Below, one piece after another: positions 3,021 to 6,568 of a stretch of 6,568 nt of DNA. Numbering within the stretch: the stretch's first letter is position 1; every line of letters begins with the position of its first letter. Source of the stretch: Calditrichia bacterium (lineage in GTDB: Bacteria > Calditrichota > Calditrichia > RBG-13-44-9 > J042). The notes beneath the pieces were generated by a model, which ran no database searches, was not told the DNA's origin, and was given only the letters and a program-made list of their open reading frames with translations. Both the position numbers and the translations under genes were made by a program. The stretch covers positions 1-6,568 of the forward strand of contig JAUIFT010000159.1 of NCBI GenBank assembly GCA_030430345.1. The letters run 5' to 3'.

Positions 3021-5117
3021 CTAAAGCAAGTTAAGGAAAGACTTTATAAGAATTTCCAAATCAAGCATCAGGGATTGGTTCTTCAGATAGAAGATATGAT
3101 ATTTCTCTTTATCGTTCGGAGCGATAATTTTTTTTCGGTTAATTTGCACCAGCCCGGTAATGCCCGGTTGATACCAATAATCGGTTTCACTCTGAGAAGG
3201 ATTGCCGCTTTCCAGCAATGGCGCACCGACGAACGATACATTTCCCCGGATAATTTCCCGAAGCAGCAACCAAAAATTTAATAACTTTTTGGAACGCGAA
3301 TTCTCCAGTTGCTTTACATTGAAATCTTGCTGTTTTTTTCCGATGATAGTTACCGTTCGCAATTTTTTAAAGTTTAGCAAATACAGTGGCACCGCTATTA
3401 GCAATAATGCAACAAAAAGAAATATACCGAGCAGAATATCAAATCCCCGCTTGACGAAACGGTTAAACGGCTTTCCAATCGCATATTCGATATCGAGCAG
3501 CGGATAATCGGTTAAACGATCAATGGTAGATTTGCCGATCATTACTTCCAAATTCGAAGGGGCAATTTTGTATTCCAGGGCGGGCATTCCCAAATCGCTC
3601 ATCGTTTTCAATATTTGCTCGTAGCTCAGGGTTTCCGAGGAAAAGATCACCTGACGCACTTTATGAATGCCGATCAATTCACCTAAATGTTCCAGACTGC
3701 CGAGTACCGGAATATGCCGGTTGTCGAATGCACTTTCATCGCCATCAATAGTGACAACGCCGAGCAACTCGTAGCTCATATCTTTCATGTCGCGGATTTT
3801 CTCAAAAAGTGCTGCGACACTATTATCATTTCCGACAATTATCGTTGGTTTGGTAAAAAGATCTTTCCCCCAGGCGGAATGATCACCACGATGATAGCGT
3901 TTGAGGATACTACGCCAGCCCATCATCATCAGCGGCGAGAAAAACGCGGCCATTAAAACCACCATTCGGGAAAACGCGAACTGTTTCAGGAAAAAAGTGA
4001 GTGCAGCCAGCAGCAGGAAGGTCAGGATGTTCGCCTTGATAATGCCCTGGATGGAAAACCGATGATGGGGATAGACCTCCAGATAATAAGCGTTTATCCA
4101 GAAAATCCCGATTGATATCAGGTTAATAATCCCATCGGAATGAAAAAAATTATACCAGGAAAATCCGTCCTTAAACGACAGGCGAATCATAAACGCAACA
4201 ATAATTGCCAGGTTGAGAATAAGCGTATCGAGAATTTGCGCGAAATGTTGATTGAGAAAATTCCTGAGATAGATAAATACCCCACGGGCAACAATTCCCA
4301 GAACGATCACCCAACGAAAAACGAAAAGCGTCTTCGATGCATAATGTTTTTCGAAGAACTGATAAAGCGCCTTATTAAACGTAATGACATAATCGAGATT
4401 GTTTTTCTTGGTGCTTTCTCCCTTGTAATGAATAATTTGGGTGGTCGGCACATAGAAAATTTTAAACCCACCGAGATTAATACGATGGCATAAATCGATA
4501 TCCTCGCAATACATAAAGAAACGCTCATCAAAATACCCGATAGTATCCAGCACGGATTTTTTAATCATCATAAACGACCCGGAAATCGCCGGAACGGTAT
4601 AGGTCTTTTCGGTATCCAGATAGGTTAGATTATATTGTGCAAAAGTTTTACTGCGCGGGAAAAGTTTACTGAGTCCCAGCACTTTCCAGAGGGCAATCAT
4701 CGGCGTCGGAATGCTGTGGCGGCAATCCACAGCAAAAGAGCCGTCCGGATTGAGAATTTTACAAGTTGCTGCACCAGCATCGGGGGTTTCCCGAAAAAAT
4801 GTCAGCAGTTTTTCAAAAGTATCTTCCTGAACGACTGTATCGGGATTAATCAACACCACATACTCCCCGCGCACTTTTTCCAGGGCGATATTATTTGCCT
4901 TCCCGAACCCGAGATTTTTTTCACTGGCAATCAGTGTTACATCGGGAAAGCGCTGCCGAATATGCGCTACGCTATTATCCACGGACGCATTATCTACAAC
5001 GAAGATTTCGTGGGTAATATCTTTCAGCGCCCGCTGCAAGGAGAGCAGCGCCTGGTCCAGATATTCCTTGACGTTGTAGTTAACAATAACCACAGAGATG
5101 TCGGGCGTTTTTTTCAT
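3021..5117 (-). CDS. GT2 glycosyltransferase fused to a degenerate WbaP/WcaJ-like membrane unit
   Basis: A 698-residue two-part protein. Residues about 7-230 are a family 2 glycosyltransferase with all expected marks: SVVIVNYN (8-15), VDNASVD (41-47), NPDT (91-94, the DxD-like site), SGSFMMI (179-185) and FMYCEDIDLCHRI (201-213). This half should transfer a sugar from a nucleotide donor at the inner membrane. A helix at about 265-285 follows, then four helices (about 296-312, 330-347, 361-379, 384-401), a Rossmann-like region (about 424-495, TIIVGNDNS) and a sugar-transferase-like end with KRGFD (556-560), PGITGLVQI (651-659) and LDLEIL (685-690). That end seems inactive: the usual Asp-Glu pair reads Asn614-Phe615, GPRP reads GAPL (631-634), and KRGFD to PGITG spans 95 residues against 132 in the upstream paralogue. 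The start ATG overlaps the upstream stop as ATGA and has no Shine-Dalgarno, implying translational coupling. The frame is intact throughout, so this is not a frameshift product. The sugar used is unknown. Confidence 0.9.
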   Translation of the reverse strand: MKKTPDISVVIVNYNVKEYLDQALLSLQRALKDITHEIFVVDNASVDNSVAHIRQRFPDVTLIASEKNLGFGKANNIALEKVRGEYVVLINPDTVVQEDTFEKLLTFFRETPDAGAATCKILNPDGSFAVDCRHSIPTPMIALWKVLGLSKLFPRSKTFAQYNLTYLDTEKTYTVPAISGSFMMIKKSVLDTIGYFDERFFMYCEDIDLCHRINLGGFKIFYVPTTQIIHYKGESTKKNNLDYVITFNKALYQFFEKHYASKTLFVFRWVIVLGIVARGVFIYLRNFLNQHFAQILDTLILNLAIIVAFMIRLSFKDGFSWYNFFHSDGIINLISIGIFWINAYYLEVYPHHRFSIQGIIKANILTFLLLAALTFFLKQFAFSRMVVLMAAFFSPLMMMGWRSILKRYHRGDHSAWGKDLFTKPTIIVGNDNSVAALFEKIRDMKDMSYELLGVVTIDGDESAFDNRHIPVLGSLEHLGELIGIHKVRQVIFSSETLSYEQILKTMSDLGMPALEYKIAPSNLEVMIGKSTIDRLTDYPLLDIEYAIGKPFNRFVKRGFDILLGIFLFVALLLIAVPLYLLNFKKLRTVTIIGKKQQDFNVKQLENSRSKKLLNFWLLLREIIRGNVSFVGAPLLESGNPSQSETDYWYQPGITGLVQINRKKIIAPNDKEKYHIFYLKNQSLMLDLEILIKSFLNLL

Positions 5118-6568
5118 AGCGGTGCATTTCTAAATAACAAAAACAAGCTTCTGATAATTATCCGTAAGTCCAAACTCAGGGTAATATTTTCCCCGTAGAA
5201 GACATCGGAGCGCACGCGTTCCTGCAATTTTTTCTGGGATTCTTCGTAACGATACTTGAATTGCGCCATTCCGGTAATACCGGGGCGAACCGTCACCCGC
5301 CGGTGCAAAAAACGGAAATTATTTTGATGCTTACGATACCATTCCAGCGATTCCGGACGAGGACCGACCAGGCTCATATCGCCACGCAGAATGTTAAACA
5401 GCTGCGGAAATTTGTAAATATGTGTTTTATAAAAAAAATTTCCCAGAGGGGTCAGTTTATCCGGCGGTGTTACACCGTGATATGCATTCGGGGTTTCGGC
5501 AGTATTCTTATCCAGGCGAAAAAGATACATATTAAAAACCCGGCCGTTCTTCCCCATAATCGGTGTTTTAACGATAATACTTTCCCGGAAGTTATAGCGC
5601 ACGATTAATGCTAACGTTAGCCAAAAAGGCAGTGTAAGGAGCAGGCAAATTACGGCAAAAGAGATGTCTATCAAGCGTTTAATTCCCCATTGCCAAAGCA
5701 TCATTTTTTCCGGAAAGGCCCGTACCAGGGAATAGCCGGCCAGTTCGGGGGATTTACCGGCAAAGATGCTCTGCAGAGAAGGTAAAGTTTTAATGACCAC
5801 CTGTAAACGGTCGCAGACCCCGATAATATTGAGCAGGTCTTCCCGGGCGGTATCCCGGATCGCAATAATGATCTCTTCGATTTTATGCTCATAGATCAAA
5901 TTTGGCAAATCCTTGTATCCTCCCAGGAGCGGATAATTCTCGAACGTAGCGCATTTTGCCTTTCGATCGACCACACCAACGATCCTGTGAAGCATGTGGG
6001 GGTTTTTCTCGATGTCCCGAATAATATTTTTCGCCTGGCGGGTAGTGCCGATTACCAGGGTATTTTTAAAAGAATACTCGAAGAGATGGTATTTCTTCTC
6101 GACAACGATAATCAGCATCCTTGCAGCATTCACCGCGATACCCATAATCACCCAGTAAAATGCCAGGGTAGATATTTGATTGCTGTTGAACATTGTTCTT
6201 TCAATGGCATCGCTGTTCATTAAAAGATCTATGTTCATCAGGATCAAAATAAAAAATATTCCAAATGAGATGATTTTACTGACGCGAAGAATTTTATCAT
6301 AGCGGGAGACGTCCCAGGTCATACGATATAACCCATTCAACCAAAAAAGAATAAGCCAGGCACCGGTAAAAACCAGCCAGACCGGGGCGGTAAAATAATC
6401 CTGCAGCGATTTAATGGTCAGCGGATTAATCATTCCCGATTGAAATTTAAACCACCAGGTAAGATACATCGCAAAGTTTATCGAGATAATATCCCCGCAA
6501 AGAATGGCAATTTTATGCCAGACCGAATCGGCATGAATTTGCGGACGAATTGCTGCCCGGGTTTCCAG
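5114..6568 (-). CDS. WbaP/WcaJ-architecture sugar transferase homologue, start outside window, catalytic pair replaced
   Basis: The frame is open to the window edge, giving 484 visible residues (numbered from the codon at 6568). The ATG at 6469 is internal: the 33 codons before it encode part of the first membrane helix, so the true start is beyond the window. Four helices (about 19-40, 63-81, 96-113, 134-155) lead into a CoA-binding-type Rossmann domain (about 170-240, VIGTTRQAK at 172-180) and a bacterial sugar transferase domain with KRLID (297-301), GDMSLVGPRP (396-405), RPGITGMAQ (428-436) and LDLRIIIRS (466-474). Active relatives move a sugar phosphate from a nucleotide sugar to undecaprenyl phosphate, starting O-antigen, capsule or exopolysaccharide synthesis. 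They carry LDELPQ, whose Asp-Glu is catalytic; here the site reads IYKFPQ (384-389), and the usual KFRTM reads LFRLD. Classical activity is therefore doubtful even though the fold looks conserved. It overlaps the next gene by ATGA. Confidence 0.9.
   Translation of the reverse strand: METRAAIRPQIHADSVWHKIAILCGDIISINFAMYLTWWFKFQSGMINPLTIKSLQDYFTAPVWLVFTGAWLILFWLNGLYRMTWDVSRYDKILRVSKIISFGIFFILILMNIDLLMNSDAIERTMFNSNQISTLAFYWVIMGIAVNAARMLIIVVEKKYHLFEYSFKNTLVIGTTRQAKNIIRDIEKNPHMLHRIVGVVDRKAKCATFENYPLLGGYKDLPNLIYEHKIEEIIIAIRDTAREDLLNIIGVCDRLQVVIKTLPSLQSIFAGKSPELAGYSLVRAFPEKMMLWQWGIKRLIDISFAVICLLLTLPFWLTLALIVRYNFRESIIVKTPIMGKNGRVFNMYLFRLDKNTAETPNAYHGVTPPDKLTPLGNFFYKTHIYKFPQLFNILRGDMSLVGPRPESLEWYRKHQNNFRFLHRRVTVRPGITGMAQFKYRYEESQKKLQERVRSDVFYGENITLSLDLRIIIRSLFLLFRNAPL

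Follow-up and report, generated by a model that had tools for sequence, protein, structure and literature searches.

The window analyzed here, a stretch of 6,568 nucleotides (nt) from a Calditrichia bacterium (GCA_030430345.1, contig JAUIFT010000159.1), carries on its minus strand the 3′ part of a gene, gene A, in whose large monotopic phosphoglycosyl transferase (PGT) half the catalytic Asp-Glu dyad is replaced by Tyr-Lys. Full-length relatives of gene A comprise about 835 amino acids (aa) and begin with a polytopic PGT of the MraY/WecA type (PF00953), which falls outside the window; judged from their sequences, these relatives are fusions of two non-homologous PGT superfamilies in one chain. 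Taken as a whole, we consider it likely that gene A encodes a polytopic PGT fused to a monotopic pseudoenzyme, the latter being kept probably for pairing with the product of the adjoining gene, gene B. The enzyme initiating surface-sugar synthesis in Calditrichota seems to have been displaced in place by a fused, unrelated enzyme. A literature search, with subscription journals mostly outside its coverage, returned no report of a polytopic-monotopic PGT fusion or of a dead monotopic PGT (monoPGT).

Gene A is represented in the window by 484 codons and a stop (5114..6568, minus strand, as for all features below; identified from the open reading frame (ORF), profiles and homologues), its 5′ end lying beyond the window. 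In the frame 6568..5114, which carries THIYKFPQLFNILRGDMSLVGPRPE around the site, Tyr385 of the window fragment is encoded by 5416..5414 and Lys386 by 5413..5411. The monoPGT domain (5117..5704) matches PF02397 with 148.3 bits over profile positions 1–178 of 179, well over the curated cut-off of 27, and so belongs to this family by profile; a phmmer alignment to PglC places the Tyr-Lys under the Asp-Glu of SLDELPQ (D93-E94). A preliminary description of the window had located Tyr-Lys in place of the catalytic dyad at 5411..5416. These coordinates proved exact, and the translation and the alignments to PF02397 and PglC agree. The same description held that the loss was confined to one site, which was not borne out. 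The PglC active site, as given in PMC12802240, consists of D93, E94, K59, R88 and R111; the window domain is without equivalents of the first four, and among its relatives K59 is gone and R88 mostly gone as well. The predicted structure of the domain keeps the PglC-like fold with its re-entrant helix and the DX12P motif.

Upstream in the protein, gene A shows the architecture of a large monotopic PGT (Lg-PGT), i.e. a membrane helix bundle (6089..6535), a Rossmann-like domain of unknown function (DUF, PF13727; 5783..6073, from profile and model) and a segment aligned to the dimerization hairpin of WbaP (5705..5782) in front of the PF02397 domain. The helices were taken from the structure model of the relative P0001 (residues 364–512) and transferred by alignment, a window residue being the P0001 residue minus 352.

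Replacement of the dyad is a character of the clade. Counts for gene A homologues refer to the best 120 of 6506. Among these, 58 proteins bear PF00953, and at the dyad they read YK (53), YR (2), DE (1), a gap (1) or SW (1); five shorter fragments all read YK; the remaining 57 have no PF00953 and all read DE. Each of the 57 DE rows has K59 and R88. Among the 60 YK/YR rows, L, V, Y or T mostly occupies position 59, 96% have Y or F at position 88, and Q45, R47 and M63 are also mostly altered; since these rows were picked for YK/YR, their column statistics are uninformative on the constancy of Tyr and Lys themselves.

Because the similarity list is biased, 40 genomes from the phylum of the genome with locus L001 were surveyed with gene A as query. 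Gene A, complete or truncated at a contig end, was found in 35 of them (36 genes, two being in genome G010). The dyad was readable in 35 of the 36 genes, with YK in 34 and NR in one (G008); in G045 it lies off the contig, as does the polytopic half in G037. In a further genome, G050, just the final 46 aa of gene A are visible, and in G032, G035, G043 and G051, assemblies of unstated completeness, gene A was not found. The preliminary description had left room for a clade-wide trait or an isolated mutation, and the survey settles this in favor of the former.

Further active-site positions were read in the same 35 genes. K59 is kept in none and R88 in two, the alignment of both stretches being uncertain, so that the pair of substrate-orienting residues expected of a monoPGT enzyme is largely missing along with the dyad. 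In contrast to these losses, the Arg numbered 112, likewise substrate-orienting and taken by us as R111 of PMC12802240, is kept in all 35, as are K7, R8, D11, R129 and Q141; D169 is kept in 34 and P24 in 29. D93, E94, K59, R88 and R112 are all intact in the 22 unfused Lg-PGTs that neighbor gene B elsewhere (see below) and in both fused proteins with Asp-Glu. No acidic residue gained in every survey member was found among the columns of the YK clade.

The monoPGT domain of gene A is under purifying selection despite its lost dyad. Between the window and L001, dN/dS (Nei-Gojobori, computed with a script) was 0.021 for this domain and 0.040 for the DUF of gene A, next to 0.017 for the glycosyltransferase family 2 (GT2) domain, 0.011 for the DUF part and 0.046 for the monoPGT-like part of gene B; the ratios are rough because dS is high (0.6–1.9). 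The earlier statement that the change does not represent simple decay is thereby strengthened.

In G029 (L100, L120) one TAG splits the fused gene A into a 442-aa polytopic frame and a 393-aa Lg-PGT frame, and G010 (L013, L018/L131) is a single genome with two fused A-B pairs. Seven further proteins (L134–L140) have a C-terminal monoPGT domain, with DE in all seven; six measure 652–696 aa and one, at a contig start, 487 aa, and the long N-terminal part was without a Pfam match in the three that were tested.

The polytopic half of full-length relatives displays the predicted fold and motifs of its family and is a PF00953 member, and it is probably this half that does the chemistry. Six of the seven genomes with fused gene A that were inspected hold only one other PF00953 protein, of 374–387 aa and taken as MraY; in G007 there is an additional one. 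Among three genomes of the Ignavibacteriota type, two hold a single PF00953 protein of 370–375 aa. The third, G024 (C35:167687-168139), has an unfused Lg-PGT with DE beside gene B and, in addition, a further PF00953 protein encoded by a frame of 557 aa.

Trees of both halves bear on the order of events. The Lg-PGT-half tree (87 rows) combines the loci with 35 proteins drawn from the 57 unfused ones with DE and with nine drawn from the other 63 listed members of the clade (P0017, P0018, P0027, P0040, P0053, P0057, P0060, P0061 and P0111), with L011, whose dyad is NR, labelled as fused YK. In this tree, 25 fused rows without DE lie on one side of a branch (value 100); adjoining them stand L020 and P0060, the fused proteins with DE (grouped at 96), and the remainder consists of the 60 unfused rows (99). 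L020 is a Bacteroidetes metagenome-assembled genome locus with a fused gene A in which Asp-Glu is kept. With P0061 and P0111 left out, a single change between YK and DE is needed. The polytopic-half tree (76 rows) includes 44 of 120 listed proteins, P0241–P0250, some of them contig-edge pieces of fused genes, being left out, and L130, with its dyad off the contig, is labelled as fused YK; 44 unfused rows lie on one side (95), adjoined by the fused pair with DE (94). Both trees were built by a quick method without bootstrapping, include the dyad columns and are unrooted; the ancestral status of the unfused enzymes with DE is assumed. In both, the fused relatives with DE separate the YK clade from the unfused enzymes, so that fusion would have come first and loss second, and the two topologies are compatible with one fusion followed by one loss.

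Gene B (3021..5117, 698 aa; from the ORF, profiles and Foldseek) encodes a GT2 glycosyltransferase that continues into a degenerate Lg-PGT, and its start overlaps the stop of gene A by 4 bp (ATGA, 5114..5117). The GT2 domain (4398..5117) shows the strings NPDT and EDIDLC; among the 109 longer homologues of gene B, NPDT or NPDS occurs in 107 and exact EDxDLC in 83. PF13727 and PF02397 both match over their cut-offs. The structure model (mean pLDDT 83.4, pTM 0.75) finds WbaP (8t53) as best Foldseek match with E = 2.6e-13, but with an rmsd of 9.4 over 440 columns, so that the half is predicted to have an Lg-PGT-like fold; this was judged from Foldseek and sequence, the VIA-align list being taken up by the GT2 domain. 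The degenerate monoPGT domain (3024..3473) has GAP for GPRP and is without Asp-Glu. None of 120 gene B homologues has the dyad at its site, the single DExP string (P0169) sitting after GAP; the same regular expression matches 57 of 59 control rows (P0062–P0120). Within the loci, one of 49 gene B proteins (L020) contains DExP, and its stretch before GRYSLVGS, KEKIHYNLLPFVFS, is without DE. The Lg-PGT half of gene B is thus devoid of the catalytic dyad, too. P0077, a GT2-Lg-PGT protein with intact DE and hence with the architecture of gene B plus the dyad, was weighed as a possible origin of gene B; its Lg-PGT half groups among ordinary DE rows in the Lg-PGT-half tree of gene A.

In WbaP, according to PMC10942596, the dimer has a modest helix-bundle contact and is held mainly by the hairpin Asn251–Gln268 between DUF and PGT domain. 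The corresponding stretch (chain positions 303–320, i.e. entry number + 52) aligned opposite GKSTIDRLTDYPLLDIE of gene B, and the segment around this position (residues 515–548; 3474..3575) is the most conserved of those cut from its Lg-PGT half. Mean column conservation was 0.768 for this segment and 0.775 for the GT2 domain; the membrane helices reached 0.646, the DUF 0.515, the re-entrant helix 0.509 and the other monoPGT part 0.518, the segment bounds having been chosen by hand with the alignments in view. The conserved hairpin region, together with dimerization of WbaP by its hairpin, leads us to favor a putative pairing of A with B through their two dead halves.

Gene B or its 5′ part follows gene A in 32 of the 36 survey genes; in six of the 32 (G028, G040, G044, G046, G048 and G049) the contig covers no more than the GT2 part, and in G009 a gap of 839 nt separates the two genes. 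In the remaining four, the contig ends within gene A (G033, G045) or at most 440 nt from it (G036, G047). Independently of this survey, 51 loci were found with gene B as query. At 22 of them, mostly from Ignavibacteriota (three are labelled Bacteroidetes or unclassified), gene B lies 713–1243 nt behind an unfused Lg-PGT with DE, so that a dyad-less gene B occurs beside a live Lg-PGT as well. L036 has a short GT2 gene between the unfused Lg-PGT and gene B, and in L020 gene A and gene B are separated by two genes, for DegT and for a short GT2; at both loci an accA-type gene follows gene B. Upstream of gene A, L001 and L009 carry genes for a DegT aminotransferase and a Gfo/Idh/MocA protein, which would fit an amino-sugar glycan. 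Behind gene B, the minus strand of the window contains a TPR/YfiO-like ORF (2374–2790), an uncharacterized ORF with a weak match to the LB_053 family (1155–2099) and a MoxR-type AAA ATPase (151–1143).

From these observations the following scheme can be proposed. A polytopic PGT was joined onto a working Lg-PGT and would have taken over its reaction by making the undecaprenyl-diphosphate-linked sugar; the monotopic half then lost D93, E94, K59 and mostly R88, and presumably became a pseudoenzyme. It may have been retained because its membrane helices and PF13727 domain pair with the dyad-less Lg-PGT half of gene B, whose GT2 domain would add the next sugar right where synthesis of the first lipid-linked sugar takes place. 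Sensing of uridine monophosphate (UMP) by the DUF is a possible second retained role. The scheme's parts differ in strength. We infer that the monotopic half scaffolds or regulates, and less certainly that genes A and B pair through their two dead Lg-PGT halves. The most complete version, i.e. an in-place takeover in which the old domain became a phylum-wide pseudoenzyme docking a second, GT2-borne dead half in a two-step initiation complex, is offered tentatively, at somewhat short of even chances.

Several findings speak against parts of this scheme. The string MGDxG is missing in P0042–P0049, eight of the 58 fused rows, of which the six that were aligned read FMGE for FMGD, and the polytopic half may therefore differ there; this subclade comprises relatives of L009 and L007. 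The hairpin-matching segment of gene A, with a conservation of 0.593, is not specially high, and operon partners need not touch, so that gene order by itself cannot demonstrate contact between A and B. In the Neomarinimicrobiota loci L022 and L034, gene B occurs without an adjacent PGT. Ligand binding may persist, given that R112 is kept throughout the survey, and at position 117 Glu or Asp was gained in 27 of the 35 genes. Further proteins with high PF02397 scores, for most of which the dyad was not read, occur in many of these genomes, and gene A need not be the sole initiator.

Among alternative explanations, the one we take most seriously, if still as an unlikely one, is that the dead half only regulates or handles lipid for its own polytopic half, with the DUF sensing UMP and the re-entrant helix holding undecaprenyl phosphate or the product, and that gene B is a mere neighbor. 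Polytopic PGTs also release UMP. According to PMC10942596, the WbaP DUF appears to sense UMP: it is stabilized by uridine nucleotides, and UMP inhibits WbaP. The retained R112, K7, R8 and D11, P24 in most genes, and the unremarkable hairpin stretch of gene A agree with such a role, which leaves unexplained, however, why gene B possesses a dyad-less Lg-PGT half and why it follows both gene A and, at the 22 other loci, an unfused Lg-PGT.

Much less probable is an enzyme with altered chemistry, using Tyr as nucleophile or another substrate, which would make gene A bifunctional. The preliminary description had offered a dead domain with a kept scaffold, regulatory or flippase-partner role and a different chemistry as alternatives; the scaffold option is now favored, with the overlapping gene B as a better candidate for a partner than a flippase, and new chemistry is not needed with a complete polytopic PGT attached in front. 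Such chemistry could account for the presence of YK/YR in 60 out of 63 members of the clade (58 PF00953 proteins and five fragments) and for the near-constant YK of the survey, as well as for R112 and the acid at position 117. Opposed to this are the losses of K59, E94 and mostly R88 along with D93, the NR member and the want of an acid gained throughout. Position 117 was rejected as a replacement nucleophile since its acid, gained in part of the survey genes, cannot be required throughout; at position 152 an acid seems to be a gain when set against the Ignavibacteriota rows, but a Glu occurs there (placed by eye) in DE enzymes, P0060 among them. That we see a redundant domain decaying and caught before deletion is more improbable still: catalysis would be redundant once fused, and the long-branch proteins P0061 (gap) and P0111 (SW) and the NR gene diverge more, yet YK is kept in 34 of 35 genes, dN/dS is low, the predicted PglC fold persists, and the stop in G029 is the single in-frame stop among 36 genes. 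An artefact of assembly, frame or alignment can be practically dismissed; the sources are mostly metagenome assemblies, but the same fusion with YK recurs in separate assemblies, including a chromosome record of 4.06 Mb (L009).

The favored explanation, a polytopic PGT fused to a retained pseudoenzyme, unites in one chain two superfamilies that have been regarded as unrelated, alternative ways of carrying out the first step of surface-glycan synthesis, and the fused relatives hint at the sequence in which one replaced the other. It would also provide a natural test of what the Lg-PGT fold does apart from catalysis, such as dimerization, nucleotide sensing, lipid handling or docking of the next glycosyltransferase. 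With the Lg-PGTs WbaP, WcaJ and EpsZ (PF13727 and PF02397), gene A shares the helix bundle, the DUF, the re-entrant helix and PGT fold, the GDMSLVGPRP and RPGITGMAQ blocks and DX12P; it differs in having neither Asp-Glu nor K59, in having mostly lost R88 and in the polytopic PGT fused in front. Compared with the polytopic PGTs MraY and WecA (PF00953), the N-terminal half of the relatives has the same predicted fold and motifs, whereas a putatively dead Lg-PGT stands behind it and one subclade reads FMGE. Among the monoPGT classes outlined in the introduction of PMC10942596 (eLife 2024), the Bi-PGTs resemble gene A in that a monoPGT core is fused to another functional domain; in gene A, the fused domain is itself a PGT, from the other superfamily, and the monoPGT core is dyad-less. 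EpsZ-EpsW, in PMC12802240, offers a structural model of an Lg-PGT in a heterocomplex controlling initiation. There, EpsW is a response regulator and the active site of EpsZ is intact, while the partner proposed for gene A is a GT2-Lg-PGT fusion.
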